From assembly GCA_902628335.1 (NCBI GenBank), contig CACOMO010000003.1:84792-148791 (forward strand): a stretch of 64,000 bases of DNA, in the 5' to 3' direction. Positions 5,971 to 50,073 of this stretch are shown here, piece by piece. The position numbers were made by a program, and so were the translations under genes. The first letter of the stretch is position 1; every line of letters begins with the position of its first letter. The DNA comes from an uncultured Gammaproteobacteria bacterium (GTDB lineage: Bacteria; Pseudomonadota; Gammaproteobacteria; GCA-002705445; GCA-002716945). A model generated the notes under the pieces. The model had not been told where the DNA came from. It did no database searches and was given only the letters and a program-made list of their open reading frames with translations.

Positions 5971-8793
5971 ATGCGTTTAACAAAAATTAAATTAGCTGGA
6001 TTTAAAACATTTGTAGACCCTACGACACTTCAGTTTCCCAGTAATCTTACGGGTATTATAGGACCTAACGGATGCGGTAAATCTAATATAATTGATGCAA
6101 TACGTTGGGTAATGGGAGAGTCATCTGCAAGGAATTTAAGAGGCGATTCGATGGAAGACGTGATTTTTTCTGGTTCGTCTGCGAGACATGAGGTAGGTAA
6201 GGCATTTGTAGAGCTAAATTTTGATAATTCTTTAAATTCTCTTGATTCAAAATTCGCTAGATATTCAGAAATAGTAATTAAAAGAGAAGTATCACGTGAT
6301 GGTACCTCGAATTACTACCTAAATAATACTCGTTGCAGGAGAAAAGACATTAGAGAGGTGTTTCTAGGAACAGGCCTTGGTCCAAGAAGTTACGCAATAA
6401 TTGAACAAGGAATGATTAGCAAACTCATTGACGCTAAGCCAGACGAGCTCAGAACATACTTAGAGGAAGCTGCAGGGATAAGTAAGTATAAAGAGAAAAG
6501 AAGAGAAACGGAATTGAGGCTCAGACATACTAGGGATAACTTGGATAGACTCAACGATATAATGAAAGAAATAAACTCTCAGCTCAATAAATTGGAGAGA
6601 CAGGCAAAGATAGCAGGTGAATATAGAGAGCTTAAAGAAAAGGAACGCGAGACTAAAATATTGCTGTTATCTCTAAAGTGGTGTAATTATGATAGCCAAA
6701 TCGAAGAGCTTAACAGTACAATCAGGAAGATAGAGTTAGAGAAAGAGAAAAAACTTGCGCTCCTGTCAACCCATAACAAAGAAGTTGAAAAATTAAGACA
6801 GAAAAGGAATGATGAGCAAACTAATTTTGATGAAATACAAAAAGAATTTTATAGGATAGGCAGTGATATTGCCAGTTGTGAAAAGGATATCGAACATAAT
6901 TTAGAAACTGAAGTCTCTAGAAAAGAGGCGCTGAACGAGTTACTAGATACTATCAAAAACTCTGAGGGTGAGGTTGAAGAAGAAGAAAAGAATTATAATC
7001 ATCTTTTATCATCCATTAAAGAGTTAGAGTCTGATCTAAATAACAATTCTAATGAGTTAGCGTCGCTCGAGAAAGATAAAAAAGATGCTAATTTTGCCAT
7101 GCAGAATCTTCAATCACAAAATAATATCTTCATAACAGAACAATCCGAAACTATTAAAGAAAAAGAGGTTGAAAAAGCTAAACTTGATGCATCTGAAAAA
7201 TCACTAAATCTTTTGTCAAAAAGATTAGGCATTCTGGAAGCATTTTCTATGAATGATAATGAGAAACATGATAATAAAGATGAATTACTGAGCGCAGCTG
7301 CAGATCTCCAAGAAAAAATTTCTGCTTTATTGGTAGACTTTGATCGTCATAGTAACTCAGGAAATAATTTAAGCATTAAAAATTTTAAAATAAGTCTTAA
7401 ATCAATTCTAACACTCTTTAAAGGTCTTTTTAATAACATCAAAGTTCTAGTAAGATCACAGAAAGATGAAATAATAGATATCAAGAAAAAAATAAGTGAT
7501 TATAAAAAAATTAGCTCTGATTGTCTAAATAAAATCAACAATCTTGAGAAAAAGATTAAAGATCATTCAAAAGTAAAAGAAAAATTCGACAAAGAGAGAA
7601 TTGAATTAAAACAGATTATCGATAAAGTTGAATGGAGTTATAATGAATCTCAGAAATCACAAAATGAATTAAATGTAGAAGTATCAAAAAAGACATCTGA
7701 GAAAAAATCTATACAAGCTAATATACAAAAACTCAAGTTAGGCATTAGTGAAATGAATGATAGAAAGTTAGTTCTACTCTCTACTGATGACAAAAAAGAT
7801 AAGCCTACCAGTAATATGAAAGATAAATTAAAAAAACTTTTAAACACTAAAAGTATTAAAGAATTAGAATTAAAAAAATCTAGAGAAGCAATTGAGCGCT
7901 ATGACGAGACAGTATTAAATATAGAAAATACTAAAAATGATATCAATATCGAGATTAACTCTATAAAAGACAATCTTGAGAGTAACAAAATTACTGTAGG
8001 CGAGAAGAAAGCTCAGCGAGACTCACTTCAGGACAATAGTGATTTGCCAGCAGATGATATATCCGAAGGAATTAAGAAAATTGACACAAAATTGAAACAG
8101 GATGATATTGAAAAAAATTTAGAGAAAATACAATCAAAGATAACATCTATGGGCGCAATTAATTTAGCTGCAATTAATGAATTGGAAGACCAACAAGAAA
8201 GAAAAAAATATTTAGACTTACAATATAATGATTTATCTGAATCGATAACTACACTTGATAATGCAATTAAGAAAATTGATCATGAAACTAAGACAAAATT
8301 CAAAGAGATATTTGATAGCATTAATTCTAATTTAAATAGTTTCTTCAATAAAATATTTGGTGGCGGTAAAGCATATCTTGAGCTGACGGATAATGATCTA
8401 CTTAATACAGGAGTCAACATTATGGCCAGACCGCCAGGGAAGTTAGTGAAAAATATTAACCTACTATCTGGTGGTGAAAAAGCAGGGACTGGTATAGCAT
8501 TTGTTTTCTCTATCTTTAAGACAAATCCAGCTCCATTTTGTCTACTTGATGAGGTTGATGCACCACTAGATGATGCTAACAATAATAGATTCTGTAACGT
8601 TGTTAAAGAGATGTCTAAAGATGTTCAGTTTATTTTTATAACTCATAATAAACTTACTATGGAACTAGCAGATATTTTAAGTGGCGTGACAATGAGAGAG
8701 GCAGGTGTATCTAAGCTTGTATCTGTGAATATTAATGATGCAGTTAAAATCGTATCAACAAGAGATAATAATATATCATCAAGACCATCGTAA
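5971..8793 (+). CDS. smc: Chromosome condensation ATPase SMC, hinge apparently missing
   Basis: Structural maintenance of chromosomes protein, which loops and separates DNA. The N-terminal head has the Walker A GPNGCGKS (31-38) and the gammaproteobacterial opening; the C-terminal head has the signature LLSGGEKAGTGIAF and Walker B LLDEVDAPLDDAN. The signature helix departs from the usual EKALTALAL. At 940 residues it is about 220 shorter than the common ~1160. Between the two long coiled coils, where the globular hinge is expected, there is only a short, helical, lysine-rich stretch (about residues 425-510) with no hinge-like motif. The frame is uninterrupted. Its TAA overlaps the ligA ATG (TAATG). 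zipA, often between smc and ligA, is absent. Confidence 0.93.
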   Translation: MRLTKIKLAGFKTFVDPTTLQFPSNLTGIIGPNGCGKSNIIDAIRWVMGESSARNLRGDSMEDVIFSGSSARHEVGKAFVELNFDNSLNSLDSKFARYSEIVIKREVSRDGTSNYYLNNTRCRRKDIREVFLGTGLGPRSYAIIEQGMISKLIDAKPDELRTYLEEAAGISKYKEKRRETELRLRHTRDNLDRLNDIMKEINSQLNKLERQAKIAGEYRELKEKERETKILLLSLKWCNYDSQIEELNSTIRKIELEKEKKLALLSTHNKEVEKLRQKRNDEQTNFDEIQKEFYRIGSDIASCEKDIEHNLETEVSRKEALNELLDTIKNSEGEVEEEEKNYNHLLSSIKELESDLNNNSNELASLEKDKKDANFAMQNLQSQNNIFITEQSETIKEKEVEKAKLDASEKSLNLLSKRLGILEAFSMNDNEKHDNKDELLSAAADLQEKISALLVDFDRHSNSGNNLSIKNFKISLKSILTLFKGLFNNIKVLVRSQKDEIIDIKKKISDYKKISSDCLNKINNLEKKIKDHSKVKEKFDKERIELKQIIDKVEWSYNESQKSQNELNVEVSKKTSEKKSIQANIQKLKLGISEMNDRKLVLLSTDDKKDKPTSNMKDKLKKLLNTKSIKELELKKSREAIERYDETVLNIENTKNDINIEINSIKDNLESNKITVGEKKAQRDSLQDNSDLPADDISEGIKKIDTKLKQDDIEKNLEKIQSKITSMGAINLAAINELEDQQERKKYLDLQYNDLSESITTLDNAIKKIDHETKTKFKEIFDSINSNLNSFFNKIFGGGKAYLELTDNDLLNTGVNIMARPPGKLVKNINLLSGGEKAGTGIAFVFSIFKTNPAPFCLLDEVDAPLDDANNNRFCNVVKEMSKDVQFIFITHNKLTMELADILSGVTMREAGVSKLVSVNINDAVKIVSTRDNNISSRPS

Positions 8794-44291: not shown

Positions 44292-44325
44292 ACCACAAAA
44301 TTAATTAATATTGAATTGCCACACT

Positions 44326-45705
44326 ATGAAGAAGCTAAGTTATAGAATAGAGACCGACTCACTCGGGAAAGTACGAGTACCTAAAACTGCTTTATATGGC
44401 GCCCAGACACAGCGTGCAGTAGATAATTTTAAAATCAGTTGGTATAGATTTGACCCAATTTTTATTGAATCACTTGCAGCTCTAAAAGCATCTTGTTCAC
44501 ATGCAAATAAGAGTGCAAAGTTAATACCTTCAAAGAAAGCAAATGCTATTTTTCAAAGCGCAATTTTGATAATGAATAATATTGAAGATTATTACGATCA
44601 ATTCCCTATAGATATTTTTCAAACAGGGTCAGGGACCAGCACCAATATGAATATGAACGAGGTTCTTTCAACGCTCGCATCGAAGAAATCAAAAATTAAA
44701 GTGCACCCTAATGACGATGTAAACATGTCTCAAAGTTCAAATGATGTTATCCCATCAACAATAAATATCTCATCTGTCTTATTGGCAACAGAGCTTAGTG
44801 CTGTAGTTGATTTTCTTGTTATGAAAATGATAGAAAAAGAGTGGGAATATAAAGATATAATTAAGACGGGTAGAACGCATCTAATGGATGCTGTTCCATT
44901 GACTCTTGGATATGAGATAGAGTCATGGAGAGAACAATTGGTACATGCGAATGATTCGTTAGAAGTAAGTAAGGAAGAGTGCCAATATTTACCCATAGGT
45001 GGGACCGCAATAGGTACAGGCATTAATGCACCAAAAACATTTCCTAAAAATGTATGTAAAGAGCTTAATAAAATTTTCAAAAAACAAAAGGTAAAGTTTA
45101 TGCCTAATGTTAACAAATCCGAGATGATAAGCTCACAAAATCATATACTTGGTATCTCAAGCTCTCTTTTGCGCTTAGCATCTTGCCTTACGAAAATAGC
45201 AAATGATCTAAGATGGATGAATTCGGGTCCTATTTCAGGTTTGTCAGAAATTAAACTTAAAGCACTTCAACCAGGGAGTAGCATAATGCCAGGTAAAATT
45301 AATCCAGTGATACCTGAGGCTGTCCTTATGGCTACTGCGCAGATTACCGGGAATCACTCCACAATAAATTTATCTTGTTTATCTGGTGCTTTTCAATTAA
45401 ATACTATGTTACCTATAATTGCTCATAACGTTATTGAGTCATTCAATATTCTTATTAGTTCAGTAGTGTCTATTACCGAGACCCTTGACACACTCACATT
45501 GAATCATGCATCAATTAGAGAATCATTAGACAGGAACCCTATCATAGCAACTAAGTTAAATGAGGTAGTGGGTTACGATAAAGCAGCACAAATAGTAAAA
45601 GAAGCATATAAAACAAATAAACCGATACTTGAAGTAGCTGAGAGTATGACTGAGTTAAGTAAAACTCAACTTCAAAAATTACTCGATCCTAAAAAACTAG
45701 TTTAG
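44326..45705 (+). CDS. fumC: Fumarate hydratase class II
   Basis: Interconverts fumarate and malate in the citric acid cycle, without an iron-sulfur cluster. Signature GSSIMPGKINPV, plus TGSGTSTNMNMNEV, SQSSNDVIPS and GRTHLMDAVPLTLG. I use ATG 44326 (459 residues), which gives the family N-terminus (YRIETDSLGKVRVP), rather than an upstream TTG. The next gene starts 3 bases after the stop, so the ExbB/ExbD-like operon may be co-transcribed with it. Confidence 0.97.
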   Translation: MKKLSYRIETDSLGKVRVPKTALYGAQTQRAVDNFKISWYRFDPIFIESLAALKASCSHANKSAKLIPSKKANAIFQSAILIMNNIEDYYDQFPIDIFQTGSGTSTNMNMNEVLSTLASKKSKIKVHPNDDVNMSQSSNDVIPSTINISSVLLATELSAVVDFLVMKMIEKEWEYKDIIKTGRTHLMDAVPLTLGYEIESWREQLVHANDSLEVSKEECQYLPIGGTAIGTGINAPKTFPKNVCKELNKIFKKQKVKFMPNVNKSEMISSQNHILGISSSLLRLASCLTKIANDLRWMNSGPISGLSEIKLKALQPGSSIMPGKINPVIPEAVLMATAQITGNHSTINLSCLSGAFQLNTMLPIIAHNVIESFNILISSVVSITETLDTLTLNHASIRESLDRNPIIATKLNEVVGYDKAAQIVKEAYKTNKPILEVAESMTELSKTQLQKLLDPKKLV

Positions 45706-45708
45706 ATA

Positions 45709-46374
45709 GTGAAAAATATTAATTTTCAAGCCAATAATATTTTTATTAAATGGTTATTTGGTTTCATCCTAATAGTGTCTATATTCTATTTATTATTCTA
45801 TTATGGATTTATTTATGAATTATTTGAAAACGATGTTAGTTTTATATCACCAATCATTTTATTAATATTTATGATCAGTACCATATTTGTTGGCTATCAA
45901 GTTAATTCACTTCAAATTTGTATCAACACACTTAAAGCGTCAAATGATGACTTAAATATTGAAACTGTTAATAAAGATAAGCGTCAAAATTACTATCTAA
46001 CATGCATTTATGAGCTATATGAGCTAACAAATACATCAAATTTATCAAATATGCATGAAGTACTAGAACTCAGGCTATCAAAGTACCTTAGAATCTTGTC
46101 ATTAGTTGTTGATCTACTCATAAGGCTTGGGTTAGTTGGCACAGTCATTGGTTTTATATTAATGCTTCAGTCAGTCACTCTCATCGAAGATTTTGATATT
46201 GGATTAATGCAGGATCTTATGAAAAACATGAGTGGCGGAATGATGGTTGCTTTATACACTACATTGACAGGACTTATAACTGCGATCGTATTAATGTTTC
46301 AAAATAAGTATCTGGAATTATTATTAATCGATTTATATTCATTAGCATCTGAAAAATTAAGAGTTTGGACATGA
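45709..46374 (+). CDS. MotA/TolQ/ExbB-like proton channel protein
   Basis: A 221-residue membrane protein with four predicted helices (about 13-34, 46-64, 132-153, 176-197). The second pair matches the MotA/TolQ/ExbB core: GLVGTVIGFILML followed by NMSGGMMVALYTTLTGLITA. The N-terminal pair and a cytoplasmic stretch (about 66-128, CINTLKASNDDLNIE) differ from TolQ and ExbB. GTG start at 45709. It overlaps the next gene by four bases (ATGA). It should form a proton-driven motor stator or energiser with the next protein. The specific system is not recognised. Confidence 0.82.
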   Translation: MKNINFQANNIFIKWLFGFILIVSIFYLLFYYGFIYELFENDVSFISPIILLIFMISTIFVGYQVNSLQICINTLKASNDDLNIETVNKDKRQNYYLTCIYELYELTNTSNLSNMHEVLELRLSKYLRILSLVVDLLIRLGLVGTVIGFILMLQSVTLIEDFDIGLMQDLMKNMSGGMMVALYTTLTGLITAIVLMFQNKYLELLLIDLYSLASEKLRVWT

Positions 46375-46979
46375 AATTTAAGACTTTGAATACTAGCACT
46401 GATCCATTCACAGATCTTTTATTTAATATTCTTCTTGGCTTTGTATTCCTCTTTTTCATTACAATTTTATTCATCAATCCAATAAGTAAACTTGGAAATA
46501 TCAATATGAAAGCTGAATTTATCATAACCATAGATTGGCCAGATAATTTACCTGATGATGTAGATATATGGGTAAAAGATCCAAATGGAGAGGTTGTTTC
46601 TTATCTGAAGAAAGAGGCTGGATGGCTTCACCTTGATAGAGATGATCAAGGCACAACTAATGATACAGTTTTGATAGGCACCAGAGAAGTGATATATCCA
46701 ATTAACAGGGAGGTAGTGACTCTAAGGGGCATCATACCTGGTGAGTATACAGTAAATGTTTATCTGTACTCTCACAATAGCAATGAACCTGTCGATGTTA
46801 ATCTTACGATAGAAAAAGTAAATCCTACGTTAAAATTAGTTTACTTCAATGATGCTTCCTTGATAAAGAAAGATGTAGAACTCACACTAGCAAGATTCAA
46901 TTTAGATAGTCTTGGAAAGTATACCCCTCTTAGAAATAGTCAAACCATTCTTACCCCGTATAAACTGGAGGGATTATAG
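46371..46979 (+). CDS. ExbD-like membrane protein with a periplasmic beta domain
   Basis: A 202-residue protein that follows the ExbB-like gene in ATGA overlap. A single N-terminal membrane helix (about 16-36) carries Asp15 in TDPFTDLLFN, the place of the proton-binding Asp of ExbD/TolR/MotB. The rest is probably periplasmic: DDVDIWVKDPNGEVVSYL and LHLDRDDQG, followed by GIIPGEYTVNVYLYSHN, resemble DUF2135/YfaP-type beta-sandwich repeats. There is no peptidoglycan-binding OmpA-like domain. I start it at ATG 46371, not the TTG two codons earlier. Role unknown. Confidence 0.75.
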   Translation: MKFKTLNTSTDPFTDLLFNILLGFVFLFFITILFINPISKLGNINMKAEFIITIDWPDNLPDDVDIWVKDPNGEVVSYLKKEAGWLHLDRDDQGTTNDTVLIGTREVIYPINREVVTLRGIIPGEYTVNVYLYSHNSNEPVDVNLTIEKVNPTLKLVYFNDASLIKKDVELTLARFNLDSLGKYTPLRNSQTILTPYKLEGL

Positions 46980-47416
46980 TGACAATTCAAATAATCATTT
47001 TAGTTTTTTTCTTAAGCTCAATATATGCTCTATTTATATATAGATTGATTAAGGTGAATCAATTTAACAGACCTATTTTGAGTATTTTATCTATTTTGTT
47101 AGTATTTGTGGTAGTACATTTTGTATTTCACAACAATATGGGTTATCCGATAAACAACGATTTACCCAGTACTTTTAAATTATTACATTTCCATAAATCA
47201 AAAAATAAGATCATAATGTTGGTAACTAACGATGATGAAAATGCACCGAGGCTTCATCGCCTAGATTATAATTTAGAGTTAGAAGAGTTACTTATGGAAG
47301 CGATAGATGATCAAAGGGCTGGCAAACTTCTGCTTGGTGTTATGAAAAAAAATAGATCAAATGGAGTTCCAAGTATAACTTTTAGAGAAATTAAGAGAAA
47401 TTTACCAACGAAATAG
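46979..47416 (+). CDS. Third protein of the ExbB/ExbD-like operon, unknown
   Basis: A 145-residue protein with two membrane helices (about 3-22 and 33-50) and a soluble C-terminal region (51-145) that has mixed charged helices (ELEELLMEAIDDQRAGKLLL) and ends in FREIKRNLPTK. GTG start at 46979, within the stop of the gene before. Not recognised. Its tight coupling to the two previous genes suggests that it is a third component of the same membrane complex. Confidence 0.7.
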   Translation: MTIQIIILVFFLSSIYALFIYRLIKVNQFNRPILSILSILLVFVVVHFVFHNNMGYPINNDLPSTFKLLHFHKSKNKIIMLVTNDDENAPRLHRLDYNLELEELLMEAIDDQRAGKLLLGVMKKNRSNGVPSITFREIKRNLPTK

Positions 47417-47472: not shown

Positions 47473-50073
47473 ATGAAATTTAAAGATTCTCTTTCTCACC
47501 AAGATGAAACAAAGACAATCTATAATATAAGCAAGGTAGATATTTCACATTTACCATATTCACTAAGGGTGCTTCTAGAGAATTATGTAAGGAATACCCC
47601 TACAAATAAGCTGGATAAAAATATAATTAATAAATTCACTAGTTGGAATGGCGAAGTGAAGGACCAGACAGAGCTCACATTTTATCCAAGTAGAGTAATT
47701 ATGCAAGATTTTACTGGTGTTCCAGCTGTAGTTGACCTTGCCTCAATGCGCGATGCTGTTAAAAAATTGAATGGAGATCCATCACTAATCAATCCTCAAT
47801 GCCAGACAGACTTAGTTATAGATCATTCAGTTATGGTAGATCATTATGGTAGTGACGATTCTCGAGATTTAAATACAAAACTTGAATACAAAAGAAACAT
47901 TGAGAGATATAGATTATTAAAATGGGGTCAAGGTGCCTTCAAAAATTTAAGAATAGTTCCACCCAATAATGGAATCATTCATCAGATAAACATCGAATAT
48001 ATTTCGAGAGTAATATTTGAAAAGCAAGAATTTGTTTATCCTGATACTGTTGTAGGAACTGATTCACATACAACTATGGTCAATGGCCTCGGAGTTCTTG
48101 GTTGGGGTGTAGGAGGAATTGAAGCCGAAGCAGCAATGCTTGGTCAGCCAATACCCATGCTGTTACCTGAGGTAATCGGGTTTGAGTTAAGTGGTGATTT
48201 AGAGGGATCTACAACTGCAACAGACCTTGTGCTTACAATAGTAGAACATCTAAGGAATGCAAATGTCGTTGGAAAATTTGTTGAGTTTCATGGAGTGGCG
48301 CTGGACCATCTATCAATTGCAGATAGATGTACTATCGCAAATATGGCTCCAGAGTACGGGGCTACTTGTGGGTTCTTCCCTGTTGACAAGATGACACTTG
48401 ATTATTTATCAACTACAGGGAAAGATGTGGAGCATGTAAATCTTGTCGAGAAGTATGCAAAGATTGTGTCACTTTTTAGAGATCCATCAGATAAAATTAA
48501 ATACACAAAAAATTTACATCTAGATATTAGTACTATCAAGGCATGCGTATCTGGACCGAAACGTCCTGAGGATAGAGTAGACTTAACCGATGTAAAAACT
48601 GCTGTTCAAGAGGAAATTAAAAAATTAAAGAAAGAAAAATCATCGGATACATCATCTGAGATAAGAGATGGATCAATCATGATTGCTGCTATTACAAGTT
48701 GCACCAATACGTCAAACCCTAATGTAATAATAGGAGCAGGCTTAGTAGCTAAAAAAGCTGTGGAACTTGGGTTAAATGTCAAAAAATGGGTAAAGACTTC
48801 ATTGGCACCGGGATCAAGAGTTGTTGAAAATTATCTTAAACAAGCTAATTTATTAACATATTTTGACAAATTAGGTTTTAACATTATTGGCTATGGTTGC
48901 ACTACATGTATTGGTAATTCAGGACCACTAGATGATAAATATGTACAGGAGATTAATAGCAAAGATCTAATTGTAAGCTCAATTTTATCAGGAAACAGAA
49001 ATTTTGAAGGGAGAATACACCCTGACATTAAAATGAATTTTCTGGCATCTCCAATGTTGGTAATAGCTTATTCGCTTGTGGGAACTATGGACTTTGACAT
49101 AACAACAGATCCAATTGGCATAGGGCGTAATGGAGAAAATGTATATCTAGAGGACATCTGGCCATCTATAAATGAAATTAACGATATTGTATCTGCTAAT
49201 ATAACAAAAGAAATGTTCACTCAATCATACCGTAATCTGTTCCAAGGAGATTCTAATTGGCAAAAAATAGACACAGAGCAATCTGAGTATTTTGATTGGG
49301 AGGAATCTTCAACTTATATTCAGCCTTCTCCTTTCTTTGATAGCTTGAATGACAATAATTCAAAATTAGTAGAAATTTCTGATGCATATCCATTGTTAGT
49401 TTTAGGCGATAGTGTTACTACTGATCATATATCCCCGGCAGGGTCTTTTAAAGAGACAACTCCAGCTGGAAAGTTTTTAGTCTCAAGAGGGACCGATATT
49501 ATCGATTTCAATTCATATGGATCTAGGCGAGGAAATTACCAGATAATGCAAAGAGGTACATTTGCGAATATCAGAATACAAAATAAGCTAGTTCCAAATA
49601 GAACAGGTGGCTTCACAAAACATATCCCATCAGATGAAGAAATGTCAATTTACGATGCTTCTCAAAAATATATTTCTGATGGTAATGACCTAGTCGTTTT
49701 TGCTGGAAAAAACTACGGTTGTGGATCCTCAAGAGATTGGGCAGCGAAAGGAACGAAGTTACTTGGAGTGAAAGCAGTAATCGCAGAGAGCTTTGAGAGA
49801 ATCCACCGCTCTAATCTTGTTGGAATGGGAGTGTTACCACTGGAATTTTTGGATGGCGATAGTTTCGACAGCTTGGAGTTAGATCTCTATTCAAAATATT
49901 CTATTGATCAAATAAATGAAAATGCTAAGGAAACTATAATTAGTACCACTAAGAATTCTAAACCTTTTAAATTCAAGACAAAAATTAGGATAGATACAGC
50001 TATGGAATGGAACTATTTTTTGAATGATGGCATACTTAATTATGTTTTAAAAAATATAGCTAGTTCCGCATAG
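47473..50073 (+). CDS. acnA: Aconitate hydratase A
   Basis: Interconverts citrate and isocitrate using a 4Fe-4S cluster. Cluster ligands lie in SCTNTSNP and GCTTCIG; VGTDSHTTMVNGLGVLGWGVGG and the swivel-domain LGDSVTTDHISPAG, GRNGENVYLEDIWPS and YGCGSSRDWAAKGTKLLGV are all present. 866 residues, near E. coli AcnA (891). It follows the ExbB/ExbD-like operon and its last 14 bases overlap the convergent hflD. With fumC, aceA and icd, it makes a citric acid cycle and glyoxylate cluster. Confidence 0.97.
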   Translation: MKFKDSLSHQDETKTIYNISKVDISHLPYSLRVLLENYVRNTPTNKLDKNIINKFTSWNGEVKDQTELTFYPSRVIMQDFTGVPAVVDLASMRDAVKKLNGDPSLINPQCQTDLVIDHSVMVDHYGSDDSRDLNTKLEYKRNIERYRLLKWGQGAFKNLRIVPPNNGIIHQINIEYISRVIFEKQEFVYPDTVVGTDSHTTMVNGLGVLGWGVGGIEAEAAMLGQPIPMLLPEVIGFELSGDLEGSTTATDLVLTIVEHLRNANVVGKFVEFHGVALDHLSIADRCTIANMAPEYGATCGFFPVDKMTLDYLSTTGKDVEHVNLVEKYAKIVSLFRDPSDKIKYTKNLHLDISTIKACVSGPKRPEDRVDLTDVKTAVQEEIKKLKKEKSSDTSSEIRDGSIMIAAITSCTNTSNPNVIIGAGLVAKKAVELGLNVKKWVKTSLAPGSRVVENYLKQANLLTYFDKLGFNIIGYGCTTCIGNSGPLDDKYVQEINSKDLIVSSILSGNRNFEGRIHPDIKMNFLASPMLVIAYSLVGTMDFDITTDPIGIGRNGENVYLEDIWPSINEINDIVSANITKEMFTQSYRNLFQGDSNWQKIDTEQSEYFDWEESSTYIQPSPFFDSLNDNNSKLVEISDAYPLLVLGDSVTTDHISPAGSFKETTPAGKFLVSRGTDIIDFNSYGSRRGNYQIMQRGTFANIRIQNKLVPNRTGGFTKHIPSDEEMSIYDASQKYISDGNDLVVFAGKNYGCGSSRDWAAKGTKLLGVKAVIAESFERIHRSNLVGMGVLPLEFLDGDSFDSLELDLYSKYSIDQINENAKETIISTTKNSKPFKFKTKIRIDTAMEWNYFLNDGILNYVLKNIASSA

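Follow-up and report, generated by a model that had tools for sequence, protein, structure and literature searches.

A three-gene operon (A-B-C, hereafter the trio) of an uncultured gammaproteobacterium probably encodes an ion-driven inner-membrane motor, in which A and B are joined by a third subunit, C, that would act in the periplasm directly, with neither a TonB or TolA arm nor an OmpA anchor. The operon lies in the window, by which we mean the whole stretch of 64,000 nucleotides that was analysed. To our knowledge, the ion-driven 5:2 motors described so far are few, comprising those of Ton, Tol, Mot, gliding and Zorya, and the trio would add to them a distinct three-gene lineage, characterized by a new axle head, a new third subunit and strong selection. 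Its putative partnership with PQQ alcohol dehydrogenases provides a concrete hypothesis for the periplasmic job of such a motor. If these readings are true, the trio would be the first of the ExbBD/TolQR/MotAB motors to be carried by phages, and also the first motor of this type tied to quinoprotein metabolism, as far as the literature was searched. That search, with preprints and most subscription journals outside its scope, returned no description of the trio operon, of a link between PQQ and ExbB, or of a phage-borne ExbB. Since the trio is carried by cultured phages and by soil-type bacteria with complete genomes, the proposal is testable by gene deletion.

Three membrane proteins between fumC and acnA

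A first-pass annotation of this DNA had placed three overlapping genes at positions 45709-47416, between fumC and acnA, and we recovered the same coordinates (Table 1). All three genes are on the same strand. Gene A starts with a GTG codon, 3 bases past the fumC stop, while A and B overlap by ATGA and B and C by TAGTG. The helix counts proposed at that time also stood, as the hydropathy analysis gave four helices in A, one in B and two in C. For the loci compared below, genes were called with a simple script and neighbour clusters were made by BLAST, and all of the structure models are of single chains.

Table 1. Positions in the window of the trio, its two neighbours and the conserved residues discussed in the text
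Feature	Position	Strand	Evidence
Gene A, channel subunit of the MotA/ExbB/TolQ family with four helices, 221 aa	45709-46374	+	PF01618 match
Gene B, one helix and periplasmic beta-sandwich, 202 aa counted from ATG	46371-46979	+	AlphaFold2 model
Gene C, two helices and periplasmic domain, 145 aa	46979-47416	+	Model, neighbour counts
fumC, upstream neighbour (context, outside the system)	44311-45705	+	Adjoins the trio in 21/21 family loci
acnA, downstream neighbour (context)	47473-50073	+	Adjoins the trio wherever the family contig reaches it
A Thr145 (GT.IGF), third helix, position of the conserved ExbB/TolQ channel Thr	46141-46143	+	61/61 cellular, 90/95 viral
A Thr185 (ALYTT..GL), the other conserved channel Thr, in the fourth helix	46261-46263	+	61/61 cellular, 94/95 viral
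B Asp15, candidate ion carrier in the transmembrane helix, at the ExbD/TolR/MotB position	46413-46415	+	46/50 cellular, 96/96 viral
B Asp63/Asp65 (DDVDIW), periplasmic domain	46557-46565	+	50/50 cellular, 96/96 viral
B Asp89-Arg90-Asp91-Asp92 (LDRDD), acidic patch, periplasmic domain	46635-46646	+	50/50 cellular, 92-96/96 viral

By sequence, A is a member of the MotA/ExbB/TolQ superfamily. It matches the Pfam family MotA_ExbB (PF01618) with an E-value of 2.2e-12 and 47.3 bits, as compared to a cut-off of 22.9, and hhalign aligned its profile with that of the canonical ExbB encoded in this bacterial family (E=5e-7). Against the sequences of solved structures, the A profile gave TolQ matches that were marginal only. 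The four helices span residues ~11-29, 38-67, 129-147 and 179-197 in the hydropathy analysis, where the raw scan splits the second helix into two overlapping windows. A charged loop sits between helices 2 and 3, which is the layout of MotA. Among 61 homologues, T145, T185, G141, G144 and G148 are invariant.

The AlphaFold2 model of B (mean pLDDT 84) consists of a helix at residues 12-34, followed by about ten strands. The Asp residue that had been noted at the ExbD position is Asp15, within DPFTDLLFN (TPFID in ExbD), and it is kept in 142 of the 146 aligned cellular and viral B proteins. In two separate lineages, Asp15 is replaced by Ala or Val jointly with the replacement of Asn19 by Lys; the first comprises loci L082, L084, L092 and L135, and the second L208 and L209, with the B of family f216. 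In the first lineage, where Asp15 has become Ala, A also bears Gly188 to Ser and/or Gln198 to Pro. Because Asp15 is replaced in these two lineages, ion coupling there may have changed or disappeared, and coupling may thus not be uniform among the carriers.

The periplasmic head of B contains the DxDIWVxDPxGE pattern of the first-pass annotation, at residues 63-74. The resemblance of this domain to DUF2135, also claimed there, is weak but probably real. PF09906 (DUF2135) matched 18 of the 50 B members at E<=1, with a best value of 9e-5; the one member with a printed score reached 14.7 bits, below the cut-off of 22 bits, and the Pfam search detected no PF09906 in the B of the window itself. DUF2135 was the sole recurring plausible match for the head. 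A fold search returned no solved fold for B at E<=0.001. The top match was TTHA1873 (7wwo), which was weak (E=0.11), and for which the literature search retrieved no describing paper. The B profile gave no useful match among the sequences of solved structures, and the fold search among viral models gave two matches below 0.001, both with low TM-scores and without a named function. Given the conserved acidic residues D63, D65, D89, D91 and D92, our guess is that the head might bind an ion or a ligand.

In the model of C (mean pLDDT 85), the periplasmic domain is arranged as strand-strand-strand-helix-strand-strand. The loop between the two helices is positively charged, and the C-terminal domain is therefore assigned to the periplasm according to the positive-inside rule. 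C matched no Pfam family over the cut-off, and no solved fold was found for it at E<=0.001 in the fold search. It adjoins B in ~106 of 111 cellular loci and in all 96 viral loci. In L084 and L088, B is followed by two tandem C genes.

Distribution, selection and the association with PQQ dehydrogenases

As compared to two close relatives, A had a dN/dS of 0.10-0.17, B of 0.05-0.06 and C of 0.16-0.17, revealing that all three genes are under purifying selection. In 21 of the 25 genomes of the window's family (f1), contig ends aside, the trio is flanked by fumC and acnA; the window's own genome is very small. The B profile matched 41 of the 369 genomes sampled across the class, 37 of them with a strong or clear match, and 16 of the 398 sampled across the phylum. 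The trio occurs in ~10% of the sampled gammaproteobacterial genomes, nearly always in the order A-B-C. It is also found together outside the window, as the earlier reading needed: A adjoins B in 104 of the 111 loci with B. The dN/dS values of 0.05-0.17 for all three genes, together with the position of A and C beside B in most loci, indicate that the trio is more than a chance arrangement.

In many of the larger genomes, the order is an L,D-transpeptidase (YkuD match, E=2e-23), a DUF302 protein, A, B, C and a VWA-FHA protein. The last of these has an N-terminus secreted by sequence, and then a VWA domain, a helix and a C-terminal FHA domain. Among the 80 named loci, the transpeptidase was present in 50, the DUF302 protein in 41, the VWA-FHA protein in 36 and another lipoprotein in 21. 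None of these four genes stands beside the trio in the window's family. The megaplasmid p1 of Azospirillum brasilense Sp7 (L220) carries a B homologue of ~30% identity with A- and C-like neighbours, and B homologues like this one occur in seven Azospirillum records.

The presence of the trio is associated with that of a PQQ alcohol dehydrogenase. In the class sample, a genome was counted as PQQ-positive when it had an E<=1e-80 match to the PQQ alcohol dehydrogenase family TIGR03075. The full-length dehydrogenase was found in 27 of 37 genomes with the trio and 36 of 332 without it (odds ratio 22, Fisher p=8e-16, phylogeny ignored). When the window's family was excluded, 27 of the 33 trio genomes were PQQ-positive (odds ratio 37, p=5e-18, phylogeny again ignored). 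In families f52, f69, f75, f108 and f142, the sampled genomes with the trio are those with the dehydrogenase. In a second, partly overlapping set, all 10 genomes of the large-genome alphaproteobacteria of f216 were PQQ-positive, as were 42 of 46 named trio genomes at E<=1e-100. The two loci also tend to be close: they lie within 30 kb of each other in 8 of 27 genomes, where a rough uniform model expects ~4% per genome (p ~5e-6). PQQ-accessory families were located within 10 kb of the trio in 16 of the 80 named loci, with five of the six family types scoring over the curated cut-off. On the basis of these gene associations, we take PQQ-dependent periplasmic alcohol oxidation to be the usual field of work of the trio in most of its carriers.

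This link cannot be the function of the trio in the window's organism, because its family contains neither the PQQ dehydrogenase (0/16 genomes) nor pqqC (0/10 genomes). In the B tree, the window's family forms a clade with f43, f94 and f127 (support 100/100), most of which is without PQQ genes; two genomes from families of this clade, G155 and G237, are PQQ-positive. The window's clade has kept the putative motor without the PQQ enzymes; among the trio carriers outside it, nearly all encode a PQQ alcohol dehydrogenase, in many cases close to the trio.

The trio in phages

B homologues were detected in 27 Rhizobium and Sinorhizobium phage records, at ~32-39% identity among the matches listed and with E-values down to 4e-33. 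A and C were near B in all five phage genomes examined, and the carriers include isolated, cultured Rhizobium phages. An IMG/VR scan yielded 202 stretches encoding relatives, 80 of which were kept (a first scan had given 10). The viral set comprises 96 loci, in which a few contigs appear twice and the prophage-like region L213 is included. The A-B-C order is intact in 95 of them; B and C are present in the remaining one, which a contig end truncates. The 53 cellular B proteins form one group among the viral ones (support 1.0) in a quick tree with midpoint rooting, and several of the deeper viral splits are weakly supported. The viral B proteins are more diverse than the cellular group.

No phage gene was found to be a conserved neighbour of the viral trio; the cassettes stand alone, in varied surroundings. 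PHROGs assigned no function to the viral or the cellular trio proteins. In L213, the trio occupies positions 6714-8702 within the prophage-like region of a bacterial genome, and holin-like, endolysin-like and trypsin-like protease genes are near. In the Rhizobium phage RHph_I1_18 (L219, 8829-10262), a VWA-domain protein is encoded ~2 kb downstream of the trio, an echo of the cellular VWA-FHA gene.

A possible, still tentative history is that the trio diversified in tailed phages and was captured once by Proteobacteria, where a tie to PQQ-dependent periplasmic alcohol oxidation developed, and that it was later released from this tie in the window's clade, being an autonomous ion-driven motor.

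Proposed mechanism and relation to known motors

In the mechanism that we propose, A, B and C would assemble into a single complex of the inner membrane and operate in the manner of ExbBD, TolQR and MotAB. A would form a ring-shaped channel and B would be the axle, putatively with a 5:2 stoichiometry, so that Asp15 of B would face Thr145 and Thr185 of A. The flow of ions past Asp15, most likely protons, would move B and its acidic, DUF2135-like periplasmic head. C, with a periplasmic domain of its own, would be the stationary third subunit, and would probably either receive this movement or act as a partner in it. Given that neither a TonB/TolA arm nor an OmpA anchor is present, the predicted force would act within the periplasm or via lineage-specific partners, namely the L,D-transpeptidase, the VWA-FHA protein or the lipoprotein. 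Several observations point to such a motor: the MotA_ExbB match of A and its profile match to canonical ExbB; the retention of the channel residues, Thr145 and Thr185 of A and Asp15 of B, in both cells and viruses; the constant three-gene order in both; the purifying selection on all three genes; the joint changes in A and B within a single clade, where Asp15 and Asn19 are replaced along with Gly188 and/or Gln198; and the co-occurrence with the PQQ dehydrogenase. Speaking against it are the lack of sequence similarity between B and ExbD outside the short motif, the replacement of Asp15 in two lineages and the absence of the PQQ dehydrogenase from the window's own family.

Rather unlikely, in our judgement, is that the trio acts chiefly as a regulated channel or leak for ions, such as a membrane-potential sensor or valve, with the B head gating on a metal ion or ligand, and that in phages it serves as a membrane or superinfection device. 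The viral cassettes, which have varied neighbours and lack a conserved arm, anchor or receptor partner, would suit such a device, as would the invariant acidic residues in the B head, which point to ion or ligand binding, and the dispensability of Asp15 in some lineages. However, the characterised relatives of A function as motors (PMC9389320), and the conserved C and the lineage-specific envelope partners better fit mechanical coupling.

A motor with a general role in envelope maintenance, doing Tol-Pal-like work in tethering the outer membrane or peptidoglycan and partnered at the cell wall by the L,D-transpeptidase, seems improbable. The frequency of the transpeptidase gene among the named loci is in its favour. 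So is the gene content of the window's family, whose reduced genomes have apparently lost Pal and the Tol system: OmpA-domain proteins (Pal, MotB) were found in 0 of 25 genomes, in line with the lack of an OmpA-like anchor noted in the first reading, and TolB in 0 of the 9 genomes tested, yet the trio is present in 21 of 25. On the other hand, TolB is present in all 33 of the other trio genomes tested, which rules out the trio as a general replacement of Tol-Pal. A link to the single L,D-transpeptidase of the window's family was also rejected, as this gene is unlinked to the trio and its product is 25-31% like the operon enzyme where any match was found.

The trio was originally described as fitting none of Mot, Tol-Pal, Ton and Zorya, a view upheld in every test made, namely the searches for an anchor, TolB, TonB, ExbD and effectors. 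With respect to Zorya, the best named matches of A are ZorA models, in NCBIfam (E=5.5e-5) and PADLOC (E=2.7e-5), both far below the curated cut-offs, and its top PDB sequence match is 8vvn chain C (E=0.012). Nevertheless, an anti-phage defence system related to ZorA/ZorB is very hard to credit: B has no ZorB-type OmpA domain, A lacks the long cytoplasmic tail of ZorA, no Zorya effector genes adjoin the trio, and B and C match no PADLOC model. The identity was rejected on these missing parts, and the constant housekeeping position at fumC/acnA in the window's family and the carriage of the trio by phages themselves also speak against it.

With ExbB-ExbD of the Ton system and TolQ-TolR of Tol-Pal, the trio shares the channel helices of A and both of their threonines, the single helix of B with the PF.D Asp at the same place, and the adjacency of the two genes in the order A-B. 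In contrast, A has four helices in a MotA-like layout, the periplasmic domain of B is a DUF2135-like beta-sandwich rather than an ExbD/TolR fold, and C takes the place of TonB or TolA as the third gene. The profile searches accordingly do not place all three proteins in either system: ExbD (PF02472) matched 0 of the 50 B members and not the B of the window, the comparison of B with the ExbD profile gave E=0.16, with homology beyond the short motif undetected, and C has no match, including to TonB_C, and is not TonB or TolA by sequence or fold. The absence of TonB from the locus, as first reported, is matched by its presence beside another ExbB and ExbD: contig C2 of the window's genome encodes at ~209-217 kb (L180) an ExbB, two ExbD, TonB and two TonB-dependent receptors, and the ExbD matches of this genome are confined to this Ton locus. 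The ExbB of L180 is apparently the sole other ExbB-family gene of the genome. That the trio is an ordinary second ExbB-ExbD-TonB or TolQRA system, under-recognised by profile searches, is scarcely believable despite the superfamily membership of A and the PF.D motif in the sole helix of B, since no B protein matches PF02472, C is neither TonB nor TolA, and the real ExbB, ExbD and TonB genes are elsewhere.

The flagellar stator MotA-MotB resembles the trio in its four-helix A subunit and in a single-helix B subunit with an Asp residue, and differs in that the OmpA-like peptidoglycan anchor is nowhere in the genomes of the window's family. The YfaP-like DUF2135 (PF09906) may correspond to the periplasmic domain of B, which, unlike that family, is fused to a motor helix; no DUF2135 match was found in the window's own B. 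Finally, VWA proteins encoded beside TolQ-like genes have been described as force transducers, the VWA protein itself being the arm or axle (PMC12204202, Mol Biol Evol 2025). These are likewise uncharacterised TolQ relatives with unusual periplasmic partners, and many of the cellular A-B-C operons have a VWA protein; in the trio, however, the axle would be B, with the VWA-FHA protein as an optional addition.
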